Shown piece after piece: positions 15,989-52,378 of a stretch of DNA of 64,000 nucleotides. The stretch is from Halomonas icarae. GTDB taxonomy: Bacteria > Pseudomonadota > Gammaproteobacteria > Pseudomonadales > Halomonadaceae. A program made the position numbers and the translations under genes. The DNA lies in NCBI RefSeq assembly GCF_009901955.1, contig NZ_WUTS01000001.1, positions 2,621,745 through 2,685,744 of the forward strand. Direction: 5' to 3'. Position 1 is the first letter of the stretch. Every line of letters begins with the position of its first letter. The notes beneath the pieces were generated by a model. It was not told the DNA's origin. It made no database searches and worked only from the letters and a program-made list of their open reading frames with translations.

Positions 15989-16744
15989 TTACTGCATCCG
16001 CACGCCGCCGTTGATGTCGATCACCGCACCGGTGATGTAGGCAGCCTCCGGCGAGACCAGAAAGGCCACCGCGCCGGCAACATCCTCGGGCGTGCCCAGG
16101 CGCCCCAGCGGAATGGCACTGGCCGCCTGGGCTTCGTCCCCCTCCTTCATGGAGAGGCGCAGCATCGGCGCGTCGATGGATCCGGGCGCCACCGCGTTGA
16201 CCGTGACGCCCAGGGGAGCCGCCTCACGCGCGGCGGCCTTGGTCAGCCCCAGCACCCCCGCCTTGGCAGCAATATACGCCGCCGAGCTGCGATACCCTCC
16301 CAGCTGCGCGGCGGACGATGAGAAGGTGACGATGCGGCCATCCGGTACCCCCCGCTGTTGCCGGCGGCGCAGAAACTCGCGCAGGGTCACGAAGGTGCCG
16401 CTCAGGTTGACTTCACTGGTCTTCTGAAACTCGCCAAGTGGCATTTCAGTGATCGGTGCTCGGCTACCGTCCTCACGCAGGATCAGCAGCCCGGCATTGC
16501 AGACTAATGCATCCAGCGGGGCGTCGGCTTCGGTGACGTCGAACACGGCCTGAACCTGCGCCTCATCGGTGATATCCATGCCGTACCCGGCATGTCCCGG
16601 ACCGTCGAGCTGGGCAGCCGTCTCACGGGCTCCGGCGGCATCCAGATCCGCCACCACCACCGACCAGCCATCACGTGCTAGGCGCATCGCAATCGTACGC
16701 CCGATGCCCCGCGCTCCACCCGTTATCAGTACTCGCTTGCTCAC
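15989..16744 (-). CDS. SDR family oxidoreductase
   Basis: 251 aa classical SDR: ITGGARGIG loop at residues 7-15, VCNAG in place of the usual NNAG, catalytic Ser in IVTFSSSAAQLGG, AYIAAKAG Tyr-Lys pair and VNAVAPGSIDAPML. VVADLDAAG after strand 2 suggests NAD. It is the first gene of the SDR/flavoprotein operon; two ATTGNATNCAAT-type palindromes lie in the divergent spacer just upstream, consistent with control by the GntR regulator at 21.2 kb. Confidence 0.91.
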   Translation of the reverse strand: MSKRVLITGGARGIGRTIAMRLARDGWSVVVADLDAAGARETAAQLDGPGHAGYGMDITDEAQVQAVFDVTEADAPLDALVCNAGLLILREDGSRAPITEMPLGEFQKTSEVNLSGTFVTLREFLRRRQQRGVPDGRIVTFSSSAAQLGGYRSSAAYIAAKAGVLGLTKAAAREAAPLGVTVNAVAPGSIDAPMLRLSMKEGDEAQAASAIPLGRLGTPEDVAGAVAFLVSPEAAYITGAVIDINGGVRMQ

Positions 16745-22030: not shown

Positions 22031-22180
22031 TCAGGCCGCCCCAAACACGAACACCGCCTCCTCGAAGGGGTTGAGCGCCATGGCCTCCTGAACCAGCAGG
22101 GCCAGCCCGTCGATCTGTTTGCGCATGTCGACGGGCTCGCGGCACAGATAGACCCTCAGTCCGGTGTCCGGCCGGATCAT
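22031..22180 (-). pseudogene. tnpB: truncated IS66 TnpB
   Basis: 49 codons remain of a protein usually about 115 aa: MIRPDTGLRVYLCREPVDMRKQIDGLALLVQEAM... ending in VFVFGAA then stop. The YLCREPVDMRKQIDGL segment is diagnostic of IS66 ORF2. The start overlaps the tnpA stop by four bases, as in intact elements. It is cut exactly where the conserved VFVF strand ends. Confidence 0.85.
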
Positions 22181-22386: not shown

Positions 22387-22829
22387 GGTGTCCTCCTTGG
22401 GGTCGGGTGACACCAGTCTGACGGACACTATTTAGATGCAGAAGATGGGGTTTGTGGACCGTTTACCATAATCGGACCCCCCTACGCATAATCGGCCCCC
22501 CGTCTGTACGGTGGCACTCTCTGCCGGGCGCTGCCCGGCGTTAAACGCCAAAATAGGAACATGCTTGCTCTGGCGTCGGAATCAGACCGGCTTCAACCCA
22601 TCAATAATAATAAGAATAATAATATTCTTATTATTCTTATGGCTGCCAGCGCACTTACCCCTGTCGCACTCCTAGGCTGTTGGATAAAACAAGCAGCGGG
22701 ATTATGCACAGGCCAGGGTGCGCCCTTCCTTTTTGGCGTTCAACCATCGGCCGTAGGCCGAACGATAAAGCCTTCAGGCTTTATCGCCCAAGGTGTAATC
22801 ACCCGCATCCAGCGGGTGGTTACACCGCC

Positions 22830-22856
22830 TGGATATCCTGGATATCCTGAATATCC
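22830..22856. repeat. 9-bp tandem repeat x3 beside the iterons
   Basis: TGGATATCC, TGGATATCC, TGAATATCC in direct tandem, just outside the iteron block. It is part of the proposed origin, possibly a binding site for a host or plasmid replication factor. Confidence 0.6.
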
Positions 22857-22875
22857 TGCTGAAAACCCGAAAATT

Positions 22876-22959
22876 CGGGCCGCTGTGACACGCTTTCGGG
22901 CCGGTGTGACACGCTATCGGGCCGCTGTGGCACGCTATCGGGCCGCTGTGACACGCCTT
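22876..22959. repeat. four tandem 21-bp iterons
   Basis: Units at 22876, 22897, 22918 and 22939 follow the consensus CGGGCCGCTGTGACACGCTAT (21 bases; read as CGGGCCGCTGTGACACGCTA plus T), with one to three changes each. Unit length equals two helical turns, as expected for initiator-binding iterons. The last unit and part of the third overlap the 3' end of the putative initiator gene. Confidence 0.8.
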
Positions 22960-23699
22960 ACCCTACTCGTGGCATCTATATCGATGCCGATTTCAGTCAA
23001 CCCGCCGGCATCCTCTTTTACTCTCCGCCGATAGTTGCGCACCTTCATGCTGCTCACAGCAATACCGCATACGGCCCGAATCAGCGTGTCCAGATACCAG
23101 CCGCCCACTGGGTTGTTCTTGTGGGTGAGTACATGCCGAGCAACCGCCTGGCTTATTCCATATTGCAACCTGGCAATCGGTGCCGGCGGGTAGTACAGGG
23201 ACAAGTCTCTCTCCATCAGCATGACCAGGGCGATGCCCAGCCGGACGCGCCACAAATGCCGCTCACCGCCCGTGAGGGGGTCGCGGCGGGTCATAGATGA
23301 CGGAATAACGTGATCGATCAGACCCCCGATGATGCTATCACCACTCTGCTCCAGCTCTGGCGTCACGATTTCTACAGTGGCAGCTCGCAAATCTCTGAGC
23401 AGCTTCTTGATGCGATCGTGGCTGTACTGGCGGTCTGATAGTGTCCGGCGCAGTTTCGCCGGATCAACCAGCAGCTCGACGCCACCATCTGAGATTTCGC
23501 GCCGCCGTTCGGCAACATAGAGTAAGGACTCCACGATATCGGCGTGACGTTGCCCAAGCCTGCCGGTGACTCGGCATCGACCAAAGTCGGTTTCCATCCA
23601 CTGTCCCGCTCGTTCCTGGGGACGCTGGCTAGGCTGATAGATCATTACTCTAGCCTGCAATGCCGTGCTGGTCGGGGCAACGCGGTTACCAGTCATCAT
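22935..23699 (-). CDS. putative plasmid-type replication initiator (repC position)
   Basis: 254 aa basic protein directly downstream of repA (14-base overlap) and running into the iterons. That is the place and orientation of repC in IncQ replicons. I do not see clear residue identity with RSF1010 RepC, but the size, basic C-terminus (RNYRRRVKEDAGGL...RVRRVTAAR) and winged-helix-like segments (KLRRTLSDRQYSHDRIKKLLRDLRAATVEIVTPE) are compatible with an iteron-binding initiator. Two adjacent ATG codons occur at the start. The function is inferred from position. Confidence 0.55.
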   Translation of the reverse strand: MMTGNRVAPTSTALQARVMIYQPSQRPQERAGQWMETDFGRCRVTGRLGQRHADIVESLLYVAERRREISDGGVELLVDPAKLRRTLSDRQYSHDRIKKLLRDLRAATVEIVTPELEQSGDSIIGGLIDHVIPSSMTRRDPLTGGERHLWRVRLGIALVMLMERDLSLYYPPAPIARLQYGISQAVARHVLTHKNNPVGGWYLDTLIRAVCGIAVSSMKVRNYRRRVKEDAGGLTEIGIDIDATSRVRRVTAAR

Positions 23700-24537
23700 C
23701 GCCGCCCCTTGCTACGGCCTTGAGCTTCGTAGGCGCGGGACGTTTTTGTCGCTCAAGTGCAGCAGGTTTGAGAATGCCGCCTTCATGCCGCCTGAACCAA
23801 CGCTCCTGGAAAGGCGCGCCATAGTTCGCCTTGCTGACGCCATAGCGAACGAAGTACCCACGCTGACCTCCATCAACGCCCCATTCATTGGCCTCGGCCT
23901 GGGTCATACCGGACAGGTAAGATTGCCACCGGATGTTATCGACCAGCACCGATGAACCACGGCTCGCCTGCTGCTGGTCACCGGTGCCCATCATTGCTGC
24001 GCCCTTATTGGAATGATGCAAAAACACGATGGAACAGCCAGTATCGGCGGCTATGGCCTCCATGCGGCCAATGACCTGGGCCATGGGACCGCTGGCGTTC
24101 TCATCCTCAATATGGAAACGGCGCAGAGTATCCAAGACCATCAGACGACGTCCCTCAGCCGCCCGCTTGAGGCCATCGAACCAGTCAAAAGCCATGATGT
24201 TGGGGCATTTCCCGATCAGTGGCTCGATCAGCAGGTGATCATCCACAGCCTGCCTCTGCGCGGGTGTAAGCTGCGCACCAAGGGCATGTAACCGGTGATG
24301 GATAGCCGCGGGTGGATCTTCGGCGGGCAAATAGATTACCGGTCCCGTGGGCAACTCACCCACTTCCAGTAGATCAGGGCCGCCGGCAATCTGTGCACTC
24401 AGCTGAAGGATTAGCATGGATTTACCGGCTCCACCAGGCGAGACAAGTGCACCTACGGTTCCTGCAACCATGTTAGGAAGGACGTAATCAACCGGCGGTG
24501 GCGGTTCAGTGAAGGCCTCAATGAGGTCAATGGCCAT
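23686..24537 (-). CDS. repA: IncQ-type RepA replicative helicase
   Basis: 283 aa hexameric RecA-fold helicase, very close in length and sequence to RSF1010 RepA. Visible motifs: PPPVDYVLPNMVAGTVGALV, Walker A SPGGAGKSML, IYLPAEDPPAAIHHRLHALG, Walker B RRLMVLDTLRRFH, IVFLHHSNKGAAM and DQQQASRGSSVLVDNIRWQS. In IncQ plasmids it unwinds oriV with RepC and primase RepB. Here repA follows a small HTH gene by three bases and overlaps the initiator gene, forming an operon. No primase or mobilization gene is nearby, so autonomous replication would need help. Confidence 0.93.
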   Translation of the reverse strand: MAIDLIEAFTEPPPPVDYVLPNMVAGTVGALVSPGGAGKSMLILQLSAQIAGGPDLLEVGELPTGPVIYLPAEDPPAAIHHRLHALGAQLTPAQRQAVDDHLLIEPLIGKCPNIMAFDWFDGLKRAAEGRRLMVLDTLRRFHIEDENASGPMAQVIGRMEAIAADTGCSIVFLHHSNKGAAMMGTGDQQQASRGSSVLVDNIRWQSYLSGMTQAEANEWGVDGGQRGYFVRYGVSKANYGAPFQERWFRRHEGGILKPAALERQKRPAPTKLKAVARGGDDDW

Positions 24538-24540
24538 TTG

Positions 24541-24789
24541 TCACCCCCGATCACCGCAGAGCCGATCACTATTCAACAGCTCGGCTATCTGTGAAGCCCG
24601 GAAATAGACACGGCGGCCTATCTTCAGCTTTGCTTTATTGATCTCCTCCGTATAAGGCTGCCGTGACTGTAGAGCGATCCTTAGCCCATCGGGGCTTCGG
24701 TGCAGAAGGTCGGCCAGCTGAGGCATCGTCAAAAGCGGGCCATACTTGTTCAGAAGCGACTCTTCCAGGCTAAGCTTCGTATCTTTCAT
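24541..24789 (-). CDS. small helix-turn-helix protein heading the rep operon
   Basis: 82 aa basic protein. The segment LLTMPQLADLLHRSPDGLRIALQSRQPYTEEINKAKLKIGRRVYFRASQIAELL resembles the AlpA/excisionase-like winged HTH used by phage and plasmid regulators. It is three bases upstream of repA, like the small repressor gene ahead of repA-repC in IncQ plasmids, and may autoregulate the rep operon. GAAGGGG about ten bases before ATG 24789 supports this start over GTG 24798. An excisionase role is the alternative. Confidence 0.6.
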   Translation of the reverse strand: MKDTKLSLEESLLNKYGPLLTMPQLADLLHRSPDGLRIALQSRQPYTEEINKAKLKIGRRVYFRASQIAELLNSDRLCGDRG

Positions 24790-24843
24790 GTTACGCACCC
24801 CTTCTTTCGGTAGACATCCTCAGCCTAATGTGGGATCGTGCGC

Positions 24844-25725
24844 ATGACAGATCTATTTTATGACAAAAAGGTTGATAGCTGTATGGCTACCTCCAGCTCG
24901 CCAATTCACAAGCCCTTAGCGGTCGAGGGTTGTTCCCCAGAAATGGCTGCTGCCATAGAGGCTTTTAGCGCTTCAATTACACCTTCCCATACCCTTCGCT
25001 CAAGGCGCTACAGCCTATTATCCTTGGTTGCCAAACACTTCGATGACGCGGCAAGTATATCAATCAGGCGCATGCTTCCAGGTTTTAACCAGGAAAAACC
25101 TTTTTCACAGCATGTGAAGCACACTGGCTGCAATAATTTAATCAAGACGTTCAAGCTGCTTTCTCGACAAGCCAGGCTGACCCCACAGGATCAAGCCGAA
25201 ATCGACTGCTTGATGGAGGTTCTCTTATTTATTAAGAGTCGTACACCATCCGAGTCCATAGCCGCTGAAATAAATCTTATCGAGAAGCCTTTCTGCGAAC
25301 TTTGTTGGCGTTTCAACATTGCTTATGACCGCTATTCAAATGGCGAAGAAGCCGAGATGAGGAACGCAAGGTATTGCGAATTTCATAATCCAAGCTCCAA
25401 CCCCTCCGCGTATCGTAATGATCATCGATACCGGAAAGACTTTGAGGAGTGGCTTATCGCACTGGGTGGAGAGAAGGAGCTGAATTTATCATCCGATTTA
25501 AAACAGCAGGAAGCCATACGCAAGAAGGCTTACGCACTCGCACATGCTAAACTCACCGAAAGAAGGATCAAGATACTCAAGCTTTATGCGGCTGGCTTTT
25601 CACAGAAAAAGATAGCAGATCAACTTGGAGTTTCTCCCCAGGCTGTTTCCAAGTCACTATTTAAGCTCCGAGGCTATTTTAGCAGCTGGACAAAGATCGC
25701 GCTGGATGACACCACCAAGTCCTAA
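24844..25725 (+). CDS. HTH-containing protein of unknown function, divergent from rep operon
   Basis: 293 aa protein, AT-richer than the core. The C-terminal part (about 235-280) has a sigma-70 region 4/LuxR-like HTH: LTERRIKILKLYAAGFSQKKIADQLGVSPQAVSKSLFKL. A central CELCWRFNIAYDR...ARYCEFHNP segment with paired Cys/His could bind metal. It is divergent from the HTH-repA operon and so may regulate replication or transfer of the former plasmid. Start is uncertain: GTG 24838, ATG 24844 and ATG 24883 are all in frame. Confidence 0.6.
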   Translation: MTDLFYDKKVDSCMATSSSPIHKPLAVEGCSPEMAAAIEAFSASITPSHTLRSRRYSLLSLVAKHFDDAASISIRRMLPGFNQEKPFSQHVKHTGCNNLIKTFKLLSRQARLTPQDQAEIDCLMEVLLFIKSRTPSESIAAEINLIEKPFCELCWRFNIAYDRYSNGEEAEMRNARYCEFHNPSSNPSAYRNDHRYRKDFEEWLIALGGEKELNLSSDLKQQEAIRKKAYALAHAKLTERRIKILKLYAAGFSQKKIADQLGVSPQAVSKSLFKLRGYFSSWTKIALDDTTKS

Positions 25726-25817
25726 ATCCTCTTACATAGATAGCAAGAGGGGGACCTAGCTTCGAATCATAGATCGCATCCATATAACAACCCCACACTT
25801 CGACAACCATTTTAAAC

Positions 25818-25974: not shown

Positions 25975-26394
25975 TTATTGCGCTGAAAGAGGAAGTCCAA
26001 AAATTTTATCAAAAGCCCAGTTATAGAAGAATGTAAAAAACATAAAAAACAGAGTAAGCCCGGCATCAAGCATGAAAGCATCCAGCAATGTCATTTCCAG
26101 CCACCATGCAAATAGGGGTAGGGTAATGGCAACGAACCCTACCTCAAACCCTATGGCATGAATAACTCGCCTGACAAGACTTCTTCCACGGGCCTGTCTG
26201 GTTTTTTCCCACATCTCAAATAACGTGTTGTAAACAGTATTCCAGACTATCGCCAACATCACTGTCACAACACCTAGCGTAGTACTATGCCCAGCATCCT
26301 TCCCTGAAAAAAAAGAGAAGGCCGTGCTTATAATCAACAACGTGATCAGCTCATAGAAAACCACATAGGTCACTCTTCGCTTTATACCTTGCAT
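25975..26394 (-). CDS. PACE family multidrug/biocide efflux transporter
   Basis: 139 aa four-helix inner-membrane proton antiporter of the AceI (chlorhexidine efflux) family, built from two tandem bacterial transmembrane-pair domains. Seen: RRVTYVVFYELITLLII, the WNTVYNTLFEMWEK motif closing the first domain, RRVIHAIGFEVGFVAITLPLFAWWLEM opening the second, and FFYNWAFDKIFG closing it; the Glu in the first helix (FYE) matches the family's essential acidic residue. The gene is moderately AT-rich and stands alone. The 190 bases beyond it to the TetR gene hold no gene. Confidence 0.9.
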   Translation of the reverse strand: MQGIKRRVTYVVFYELITLLIISTAFSFFSGKDAGHSTTLGVVTVMLAIVWNTVYNTLFEMWEKTRQARGRSLVRRVIHAIGFEVGFVAITLPLFAWWLEMTLLDAFMLDAGLTLFFMFFTFFYNWAFDKIFGLPLSAQ

Positions 26395-35899: not shown

Positions 35900-36970
35900 T
35901 TAGAATGATCGACCGTATCTTATTCCGTCAAGCTTTTCGACCAGATCCTCTGCTCTCAGATGCGTATACCGCCTCAGCATCTGCATGGACTTGTGACCAC
36001 TGATCGCGGCGACCTCCTGATCGGATAGACCCGCCTCAACTAGACGACTGACGGCCTCATGGCGTAAGTCGTGAAAGCGGAAGTCATCGAGCCCTGCCTG
36101 CTTCTTCGCGTGGTTCCAGAGCTTGGTGTAGGCATAGGGGCCGCGCTTGCCGTCCTTTCCAGGCTCGCCGAAGAACACCAGGTCGCAGTCGAGCGGGCGC
36201 ACCGGATTGTTCAGCGCTTGCTTGAACACCTCATTAGCGGCCTGGGTCAGCGGCACCAAGCGAGCTTCGTTGTTCTTGGTGTCGGTGAGACGCACTACAC
36301 GGCGTTTCACGTCGACCTGAGAGCGTGTGAGGGTCAGGATCTCTGAGGAGCGCATGCCCGTCTCCAGGGCGATTCTGGCGATCCAGGCCAGCATGGGATT
36401 ACTGTGCTGCCGTAGCACGTCGAACAGGCGCTTCTCCTCGTTGGCGCTCAAGCGCCGGTCGCGCCCTTCTCCAGGGCTGGGCTTGCGGATGTTCTGAACG
36501 GGGTTGTAGGTCAGGCCCAGCCCCCACTCCTGGATGGCCACGGTGTAGAGATGGCCAAGCAGGGCGAGCTCCAGCCGCACGGTATTGGCGCTGATGGGCT
36601 GCCCACGATGGCCAATGCTGTTCAGGCGGGTGTCACGGAAATTGGCGATCAACTCCGGCGTCAGGGCCGCAAGCGAATACTTGCCCAAGTGCTCGATCAG
36701 CGTGCTGGCCTTGTGGCGCTCGCTCTTTTGGGTGCTGGGCTTCTTGGTGGGTGTGACGTCGGCCAGGTAGCGCTTGAGCGCGGCTTCGAGCGTCATGCGC
36801 TCCGAAGCGCTGCGCTGGATATAAACACCACGCACCATTTCGTCTTCGGTGCGGCGTGCCCAGTCCTGGGCGTCTCGTTTGGTTCGGAAGGTCTTGGCGG
36901 TGGTGGGCCAGCCGGTCTTTCGGATGACGGCTTTCCAGCTACCGGCAGGGGTCTTGACGATGGTGGCCAT
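35900..36970 (-). CDS. tyrosine recombinase / island integrase
   Basis: 356 aa phage-type site-specific integrase. N-terminal arm-binding domain (about 1-55, KTFRTKRDAQDWARRTEDEMVRG), core-binding SAM-like domain (about 58-160) and catalytic domain with ALETGMRSSEIL (first Arg), HDLRHEAVSRL (His-x-x-Arg), SGHKSMQMLRRYTHL (second His and Tyr nucleophile). It lies 98 bases from a tRNA gene's 3' end, transcribed away from the tRNA in the same direction, the usual layout for islands inserted in tRNA genes. GC content is near core, unlike the passengers beside it. Confidence 0.94.
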   Translation of the reverse strand: MATIVKTPAGSWKAVIRKTGWPTTAKTFRTKRDAQDWARRTEDEMVRGVYIQRSASERMTLEAALKRYLADVTPTKKPSTQKSERHKASTLIEHLGKYSLAALTPELIANFRDTRLNSIGHRGQPISANTVRLELALLGHLYTVAIQEWGLGLTYNPVQNIRKPSPGEGRDRRLSANEEKRLFDVLRQHSNPMLAWIARIALETGMRSSEILTLTRSQVDVKRRVVRLTDTKNNEARLVPLTQAANEVFKQALNNPVRPLDCDLVFFGEPGKDGKRGPYAYTKLWNHAKKQAGLDDFRFHDLRHEAVSRLVEAGLSDQEVAAISGHKSMQMLRRYTHLRAEDLVEKLDGIRYGRSF

Positions 36971-37067: not shown

Positions 37068-37144
<77 letters not shown>

Positions 37145-50464: not shown

Positions 50465-52378
50465 CTAGCGCCTCCGTCGCTGAGAGGCGGGCGGCAGGGG
50501 ATAGCGGAACTTGAGGAACTTCTGGGCGTTGCTCAGCACCTGGAAGGCGTCCTTCAGGGTGTGTCGGTCGCCGTCACTGATGTTTTCCGGTTCGATATTG
50601 TTGTCCGGTTCACGCTCTGCCTGAATATCGATCACCTGATGATGGATTCGCGTCATGGTCAGAAACTCCAGCGCATGGCGCAGCTTCTCGCCTACCCCAT
50701 CCGGCAGCAGCTGGGTGTGGCTGATATCGTCCAGGCGCGCGAAGCTGTTCTGGGCATGAGAACCGCAGGCCAGGGCGTGAACCCGGATCAGGTCGGTCAG
50801 CGGTGCGGTGCCGCGCCGCTTCAGGTTGATGCTGTTGTTGTGCTTGCCATCCTTCTCCATCACGAAGGTGCGGAAGAACCCCAGTGGCGGCGTACGATTG
50901 AGGGCGTTACGAGCCATCGCCGCCAGGAACAGCTTGCTGTGGGGCGCCTGGTGGGCGACCAGATCCTGGAGCTGTTCCACGAAACTGTTCTCGCCATAGA
51001 CCGCGTCCAGGTCGAAGAAGATCGAACTGTGCAGCAGCCGTTCGGGCGTGGGGTCGCGAATCCAGTCCTGGAAGTAGCCTTTCCACACGGATAGCGGCTG
51101 CCGCCAGCGGGGGTTGGTGGCCATGATATCGCCGGTGCAGTAGGCATAGCCGCAGGCGGCGAGACCATCGCTGACCCGCGTGGCCAACGCCATGAAGTAG
51201 CCGTCGTGGCGCGCGGGATCGTAGTCGTCGGACAGCACCAGGGCATTGTCCTGGTCGGTGACCAATGTCTGCTCATTGCGCGCCATGGAGCCCATGGCCA
51301 TGTAGCAGTAGGGGACCGGCGGCGGCCCCAGCTCCTCCTCGGCCAGTTCCAGCAGGCGGCGCGTGAAGCTGCGGGCGATGGTGGAGAGCGCGCTGCCAAT
51401 CATCAGCGAGTCGGCGCCATCCTCGACCATGCGCACGAAGGTGCCTTTAACATCCGGCGCCAGCCGGGCCAGGCCCTCCACCGTGGACTGGCTGTAGATA
51501 TTGCTGACCAGATAGAGGCTGGAGTGGGTCTCGTAGCGAATGATGTCGGAGAGATGCACGATCCCCACCGGGCTGCGACGATGCATCACCGGCAGGTGGT
51601 GAATATTGTTGCGCAGCATGGTGAGCATCGCCTCATGCACCGACTCGCCGGACTGAATCGCCACCAGCTTCTTGTCCGCCACCTCGCCGATCGGCGTGCT
51701 TGGCGGGCGCCCTTCGGCCACCGTCCGGCGAAAATCGCTGTCGGTCAGGATGCCCCTCACCTGCCAGTCGCGCTCTTCGCTGTCACGCAGGACATAGCGG
51801 GAGTTCTCCTCCGGGGTATCGAGCACCAGCACCGCCGAGGCGCCGTAGTCGGTGATCTGGCTGGCTGCCTCCTGCAGCGTGGTGCTGGCCTCGAGCATCA
51901 ATGGATAGCGGCTGAGCAGCTTGCGCACTCGGGTGACCAGCATGTCGTTCTGCTGCTTGTGCTGCTCCACCGCCGTCTCGAGGCGTGGACGCTCCACCTC
52001 GACGAAGTCGGCGAAGTCGTCGTCCTGCTCACAAAGCCGCTGGAAGACGGCATCCGGGATAAAGTAGATCAGGCTATCTTCCAGCGCACGGGCCGGAAAA
52101 CGCACTCGGTAATTGCGCAGCAGGCTGAAGTGCCCAAAGATATCGCCCTCGCCGAGACGGTTATGGAGGCTCCCGTTGCGGCGATAGACCTCCACCGCGC
52201 CGCTGCGCACATAGCCGAGCTCCCTGACCTCCTCATCGAGCACCAGGATATCGCTGCCGGCCTGGAAGTAGGCTACCTCGACCTGGCTGGCGATCTCGTC
52301 GAGCAGCTCGTCCGACAGGGTATCGAAGGGCGGAAACTGCCCCATATGCTGGCGAATCTCCAGCCATTCCACTTCCAT
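50465..52378 (-). CDS. cyclic-nucleotide-binding/CBS/DUF294 nucleotidyltransferase-like signalling protein
   Basis: 637 aa cytoplasmic protein. Domains in order: cyclic-nucleotide-binding fold (about 15-135), CBS pair (about 160-285), putative nucleotidyltransferase DUF294 (about 305-450, with YMAMGSMARNEQTLVTDQDNALVL holding the GS and DxD metal motif) and the substrate-binding DUF294_C helices (about 480-620). Resembles GlnD-like sensors. Forms an operon with the exonuclease. Ligand and target unknown; probably couples nucleotide or energy status to metabolism. Confidence 0.9.
   Translation of the reverse strand: MEVEWLEIRQHMGQFPPFDTLSDELLDEIASQVEVAYFQAGSDILVLDEEVRELGYVRSGAVEVYRRNGSLHNRLGEGDIFGHFSLLRNYRVRFPARALEDSLIYFIPDAVFQRLCEQDDDFADFVEVERPRLETAVEQHKQQNDMLVTRVRKLLSRYPLMLEASTTLQEAASQITDYGASAVLVLDTPEENSRYVLRDSEERDWQVRGILTDSDFRRTVAEGRPPSTPIGEVADKKLVAIQSGESVHEAMLTMLRNNIHHLPVMHRRSPVGIVHLSDIIRYETHSSLYLVSNIYSQSTVEGLARLAPDVKGTFVRMVEDGADSLMIGSALSTIARSFTRRLLELAEEELGPPPVPYCYMAMGSMARNEQTLVTDQDNALVLSDDYDPARHDGYFMALATRVSDGLAACGYAYCTGDIMATNPRWRQPLSVWKGYFQDWIRDPTPERLLHSSIFFDLDAVYGENSFVEQLQDLVAHQAPHSKLFLAAMARNALNRTPPLGFFRTFVMEKDGKHNNSINLKRRGTAPLTDLIRVHALACGSHAQNSFARLDDISHTQLLPDGVGEKLRHALEFLTMTRIHHQVIDIQAEREPDNNIEPENISDGDRHTLKDAFQVLSNAQKFLKFRYPLPPASQRRRR

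Follow-up and report, generated by a model that had tools for sequence, protein, structure and literature searches.

In a 64,000-nucleotide (nt) window of the Halomonas icarae genome (assembly GCF_009901955.1, contig NZ_WUTS01000001.1, positions 2,621,745 to 2,685,744; window coordinates are used below), the interval 22560-25740 is, judged from its sequence, a replication module belonging to an integrative mobilizable element (IME) of the GIsul2 type, beside a tRNA-Met gene. This kind of element is already known; its new part is the initiator cassette, formed by a protein at the repC position, for which the name RepC-alt was coined here, and its 21-bp iterons. It is very probable that this module, with RepC-alt and the iterons as an exchangeable cassette, drives the replication of the excised circle. 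A wider proposal is favoured on balance, with less assurance: that an undescribed RepC-alt family is traded together with its own iterons, as a cassette, between the IncQ1-like and IncQ2/3-like helicase backbones of plasmids and integrative elements, that this explains the IncQ-3 plasmids reported without repC, and that in islands the cassette drives excised-element replication at ssi-like hairpins without an IncQ primase, using a host or helper primase. The features of the module are as follows.

24541-24798, minus strand: small helix-turn-helix (HTH) gene, 85 amino acids (aa), located where related islands have AlpA (HTH_17, E = 1e-3, below the Pfam cut-off)
23686-24537, minus strand: RepA, RSF1010-type helicase (match to the RSF1010 RepA structure 1g8y, E = 5e-152)
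22935-23699, minus strand: RepC-alt, open reading frame (ORF) at the repC position, 254 aa, isoelectric point 10.2 (profile similarity to TrfA and RepC)
22874-22956, minus strand: four 21-bp iterons, consensus AGCGTGnCACAGCGGCCCGAT, the first copy overlapping the 3' end of the RepC-alt ORF
22831-22858, minus strand: three AGGATATyC repeats, preceding the hairpins
22792-22826, minus strand: hairpin 1, ssi-like, 14 pairs (covariation, 14 rows)
22764-22785, minus strand: hairpin 2 (GATAAAGCC...GGCTTTATC), aligning with GIsul2
22747-22761, minus strand: hairpin 3 (TCGGCCTACGGCCGA), then a GGTTGAACGCCAA block, also in the GIsul2 alignment
22604-22640, minus strand: A+T-rich palindrome, with a similar palindrome present in GIsul2
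22523-22539, minus strand: GC-rich hairpin

Sequence comparison established the order of the genes, the iterons, the covariation of the hairpin, the setting within an element and the exchange of the cassette. An initial annotation had described an IncQ-like replicon with an RSF1010-like RepA, an HTH gene three bases upstream of repA, a basic protein overlapping repA, four 21-bp iterons, a 9-bp repeat in three copies and at least five hairpins, all of which were recovered at the coordinates listed. RepA is 83% identical across 276 aa to RepA of the IncQ1 plasmid DN1, and the 14 bp overlap between repA and the RepC-alt ORF is the same in the window, DN1, pA132-2 and pUL3AT. The module thus shares with RSF1010 and the IncQ1 plasmids the RepA helicase, the 14-bp overlap and iterons of about 20 bp followed by hairpins; it differs from them in that its initiator is not a PF06504 protein, no RepB was found, an AlpA-like gene instead of repressor F precedes repA, and the locus is chromosomal. 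The AlpA position is occupied in the related locus L019 by a Phage_AlpA match (E = 7.5e-13). As the annotation had stated, the ORFs of the interval include no RepB or mob gene; the TrbJ and TrbL assigned to this element are on a separate contig (see below). Promoter and terminator scans gave chance-level results only.

The claim that the initiator is unlike RSF1010 RepC was borne out. PF06504 (RepC) was matched by none of 18 RepC-alt members at a limit of E = 10 (HMMER filters discard most matches above about E = 0.1) and is matched by GIsul2 RepC at 8e-145. RepC-alt gave no Pfam or NCBIfam match at E up to 1, and its PDB matches were at chance level only: a RecA identity was rejected as resting on repeated 2.4-bit matches to concatenated RecA chains, and a likeness to lambda integrase (E = 0.28) was rejected likewise. 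The kinship to Rep proteins was found at the profile level. Comparison with five TrfA sequences in hhalign scored 52.3 (probability 91%, 137 columns); none of 60 shuffles was as high (maximum 26.4), the reversed comparison scored 14.7 and nine decoy families scored at most 19.5. The comparison with nine canonical RepC sequences scored 36.4 (probability 40%, shuffle maximum 29.2), the similarity being weak and at the C-terminus, and canonical RepC against TrfA scored 90. Alignment A1 excludes L029 (partial), L031 and L032; alignment A4 holds 18 selected rows. We place RepC-alt on a deep branch within the TrfA/RepC initiators and would expect a winged-helix fold of it. It is set apart from TrfA of the IncP plasmids by having no Pfam-level match, and TrfA replicons are not known to contain an IncQ-type RepA. 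A TrfA-like protein beside ParA (L057) scores above the PF06504 cut-off, which is consistent with RepC and TrfA sharing an ancestor. The Leptospirillum plasmids p49879.1 and p49879.2 encode distant homologues of RepC-alt (27-31% identical), and their inspected stretches bear no RepA annotation. As far as the open-access literature goes, the family is apparently undescribed. The plasmid records read label RepC-alt 'ABC transporter ATPase' or hypothetical, so that such replicons are easily missed.

The iteron array of the window had a tandem score of 49.5, whereas the best of 500 mononucleotide shuffles reached 10.5. In a survey of 28 RepC-alt loci (L004, L005, L029, L031, L032, L044 and L053 were left out) the best tandem period was 21 at 25; the exceptions were L009, with one iteron left, L015, where a simple repeat outscores the visible iterons, and L025, where the sequence ends soon after. 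At L009 (8740-9000) the array is down to one copy and the repC frame extends beyond its usual end, a natural deletion. Across the loci the GGATAT repeats and hairpin 1 come after the iterons. In the 14 rows aligned for hairpin 1, both sides have changed in nine of the 14 pairs and 93.8% of cells pair; the covariation score was reached by none of 500 shuffles, a count that is not a probability as the rows are related.

Several comparisons present RepC-alt and the iterons as an exchangeable specificity cassette between a conserved repA and a conserved hairpin region. Between the plasmids pUL3AT and pQ7, nt 1-839 of repA are 95.4% identical, hairpin 1 is 82% and the next 103 nt are 96% identical, and other long pieces are 92-99.5% identical and partly rearranged, while the RepC-alt and iteron block is unmatched. 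The RepA of GIsul2 is 85% identical to that of the window over 266 aa, and its oriV hairpin half aligns with all eight of the RepC-alt origins compared, with scores of 190-291 that exceed all 500 shuffles in each case (maxima 114-138). GIsul2 differs in that its RepC is a canonical member of PF06504 and its iteron half is IncQ1-like. For this iteron/AT half, the alignments with an IncQ1 plasmid and with pQ7 were equalled by none of 500 shuffles, but those with the window (173 of 500 shuffles as high) and with locus L022 (129 of 500) did not rise above chance. BLAST of such short oriV stretches gave only a 20-nt match between GIsul2 and the window; local alignment with shuffles was more telling. 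RepC-alt is about 68-69% identical between the window and L022, whose RepAs are 42% identical, and by tblastn it matches no canonical RepC plasmid record. In a RepA tree of 38 rows each main clade contains both RepC types; four changes are needed, at least three of them forced by supported branches. Of the inner branches of this tree, 35 in all, 12 are starred, and long branches lead to L001, L003 and L017; L048, L065 and L067 were excluded as duplicates, together with several duplicate loci and rows of 180 aa or less.

The same cassette occurs on free plasmids. pUL3AT, pJF-707 and pSMBC31-5K carry RepC-alt at the repC position (63-68% identical to that of the window), and pUL3AT and pSMBC31-5K also have 21-bp iterons, GGATAT repeats and the hairpin. 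These three differ from the window in being free plasmids and in their RepA, which is only 42-44% identical; pUL3AT and pSMBC31-5K further share, at 97%, a MobA-RepB protein (a relaxase by Pfam), which PMC7557826 describes as a fusion. The same paper reports pUL3AT, pJF-707 and p435_c4 as lacking repC and designates pUL3AT and pJF-707 IncQ-3. RepC-alt overlaps repA in both pUL3AT and pJF-707 (KX946994), pUL3AT is typed IncQ2 in its record, and pSMBC31-5K has no canonical repC annotated. Since RepC-alt fills the repC place where repC was reported missing or no canonical repC is annotated, it is likely to be the initiator of pUL3AT and pSMBC31-5K.

Homologous modules were sought elsewhere and found on plasmids and islands. 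With these modules and the profile similarity of RepC-alt to TrfA and RepC, the conditions under which the annotation's replicon reading would have failed do not hold as far as they were examined. A tblastn search with the 254-aa RepC-alt matched eight of 72,556 plasmid records, compared with 1155 for canonical RepC (806 with at least 80% coverage), and pattern scans located 24 genome-contig loci and three viral contigs. RepC-alt recurs with 21-bp iterons on islands in many proteobacterial genera, which span the alpha-, beta- and gammaproteobacteria. Neighbouring genes were clustered for 33 sources (the window, the own-genome copy L005, plasmids L001-L004, the 24 genome loci and the three viral contigs), and the main clusters were identified by scanning one or two representatives each. 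The guaA-side integrase (cluster C4) was present in 20 sources and the integrase of the window (C13) in four, GMP synthase (guaA) in 14, AlpA (C6) in 16, a NikA-like protein in 12, a relaxase in four, TrbJ in 20, TrbL in 19 and the regulator-like cluster C2 in 20, in a recurring order. This supports the annotation's proposal of an IncQ-derived module belonging to an integrative element. GIsul2 and the IncP-island type IMEs, which integrate at guaA, share with this element the int, alpA, repA, repC, oriV hairpin and trbJKL components, and the published GIsul2-type layout matches the gene order of the RepC-alt islands (PMC5704250, PMC9376610, PMC7775301). Such elements occur in IMG/VR (L030-L032), and in L019 the TrbJ, TrbL and NikA-like proteins match PHROG families over almost their whole length; some elements of this kind have thus been filed as viral.

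The remaining features of the element in the window are listed below.

37068-37144, minus strand: tRNA-Met gene, integration site on the attL side (ARAGORN)
35900-36970, minus strand: tyrosine integrase, cluster C13 (PF00589, E = 1.5e-34), a cluster common to L006, L007 and L015
25975-35852: cargo region separating the integrase from the rep module (PACE efflux transporter, TetR-type regulator, Ada, EamA, alcohol dehydrogenase, methyltransferase, NUDIX)
24838-25725, plus strand: divergent regulator-like gene, cluster C2 (HTH_23, E = 9.5e-8; CxxC and CxxH motifs, C-terminal HTH)
22467-22474: 8-bp target duplication CGATTATG, shared by both IS66 breakpoints (window and contig C20)
22041-22474: IS66 end with the tnpB start and a preceding ORF not identified by Pfam, the other IS66 end being on C20
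21964-22040, plus strand: 77-bp repeat, an insertion-sequence end by its look, with four further copies in contig 1 (at least 73 of 77 bases)

Integration at the 3' end of guaA, the habit of GIsul2, is not the case here: the C13 integrase, which differs from the guaA-side integrase C4, stands beside a tRNA-Met match in the window and in L006, L007 and L015. In L006 the integrase directly adjoins the rep module, without intervening cargo, and at the far end of L015 the tRNA end recurs as a 55-bp repeat that bounds the element, about 10.9 kb in total. The cargo of this compact tRNA-Met element (L015:13274-15347) comprises a D12-class adenine methyltransferase and, next to it, a DUF7690/DUF7687 protein; the two may form a restriction pair. 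In the L006 genome (G487, contig C14) a second tRNA-Met 3' end (81%) with the left edge of the element lies at 51135-51279, about 12.4 kb from the first, and may be a junction with a second element in a tandem pair. The cargo in the window includes a PACE-family efflux transporter gene at 25975-26394, with Ada and EamA genes. The C2 gene is conserved across a 17-row alignment (window counted) and may regulate the rep genes or those for excision.

On its other side the element probably runs on, by way of IS66, into another contig of this genome, C20 (locus L043). The other IS66 end lies there at 16145-16585 (transposase C-terminus, E = 7.5e-29), with the second copy of the duplication. C20 12685-16153 is 98% identical to L006 12682-9220, starting where the homology between the window and L006 ends (L006 9228), and its TrbL is 99% identical to that of L006. 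NCBIfam names TrbJ and TrbL in the L006 region matched by C20; the C20 TrbJ has no Pfam match, and a TrbK would be assigned from position only. An attR-like stretch of 42 bp (C20 270-311) is 88% identical to the window tRNA and 95% to L006. An unmarked scaffold or assembly join at 22040 is probable, since the 77-bp repeat abuts a run of N in one other copy read (L070); genuine truncation of the element at 22040 was rejected because this makes an assembly join likelier. The far half of the element on C20 (540-12123) carries a defence cluster of AbiEi/AbiEii, Lamassu/Hachiman-like genes (a HamA/LmuA-like nuclease and LmuB- and LmuC-like proteins) and two helicases, one DinG-like and one of the Schlafen group that includes an S24 peptidase domain.

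We infer DNA binding, helicase loading, priming and replication of the excised form from this arrangement. The integrase and the AlpA-like protein would excise the element as a circle, RepC-alt would bind the 21-bp iterons and open the adjacent AT tract, and the RepA helicase would be loaded and unwind the DNA. Synthesis would then begin at the ssi-like hairpin, primed by a host or helper primase; the circle would persist until re-integration, and helper-driven transfer would be supported. Host DnaG or a helper primase is proposed as the primer source because no IncQ RepB was found: DN1 RepB, run without a control, matched none of 14 genomes including the own genome. The C-terminus of the pUL3AT MobA-RepB matched two of 17 genomes or records, namely the pSMBC31-5K control and the L017 genome, and none of the other 12 island genomes or the own genome, with limited sensitivity, the C. 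braakii and IncQ1 plasmid records being missed as well. The islands may have a primase of another type.

Some observations weigh against this mechanism. The module is rare: among 97 genomes of relatives it was present in one, the own genome, and RepC-alt gave three matches in 398 Pseudomonadota (the own, one genuine other and one by chance; a match in G135 was rejected as a repeat-rich protein). PF06504 likewise gave three matches in these 398, the L057 protein being one of them. L009 retains a single iteron, and the L018 array scores 9.5, inside the shuffle range of the window. The similarity of RepC-alt to canonical RepC is weak when taken alone, the HTH protein of the window does not reach the Pfam cut-off, and the search for RepB used just two queries, of which the second had limited sensitivity. 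In GIsul2, according to PMC9376610, deletion of alpA/repA/C did not abolish integration, so that the module is dispensable for the integration step.

The relic alternative left standing by the initial annotation, taken as a defunct IncQ plasmid that inserted by chance and is degenerating in the chromosome, would suit an interval without primase or mob gene and with an IS66 fragment at its edge. It is highly improbable, as the rep genes are open, L006 matches the module (22467-25701) at 96% identity, the order of module and integrase recurs across many genera and the element carries on in C20. Of the annotation's two readings, the integrative-element module is supported and the relic is not; the tRNA-Met element, the split by IS66 and the exchanged initiator-iteron cassette had escaped it. 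A function in copy control, or in priming of the strand entering a recipient instead of true replication of the excised circle, is unlikely. It would agree with the failure of the pUL3AT MobA-RepB C-terminus to find an IncQ-type primase in the 12 island-bearing genomes and with a 2017 review according to which no one had yet studied whether excised IMEs replicate (PMC5704250); against it, RepC-alt is found in pUL3AT where repC was reported missing and is the likely initiator there and in pSMBC31-5K.

Divergence of RepC-alt from canonical RepC in place, with no cassette exchange, has very little probability in our view. The common 14-bp repA overlap and the weak C-terminal profile similarity would fit such a course. 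However, the RepA of the window is close to that of DN1 and its RepC-alt still finds no canonical RepC record, RepC-alt stays similar between the window and L022 despite the distant RepAs, pUL3AT and pQ7 share most else except the RepC-alt and iteron block, and the iteron half of GIsul2 tracks its RepC type.

The replication module of a GIsul2-type IME with an exchangeable RepC-alt cassette, the preferred reading, offers a concrete answer to the puzzle of IncQ-3 plasmids without repC, as posed in PMC7557826. It bears on incompatibility typing, pUL3AT having been typed IncQ2 though its initiator lies outside the usual family, and the compact element makes the question of excised-IME replication testable. 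On this reading the specificity of a plasmid, set by initiator and iterons, can be exchanged as one block while the helicase and the putative priming hairpins stay.

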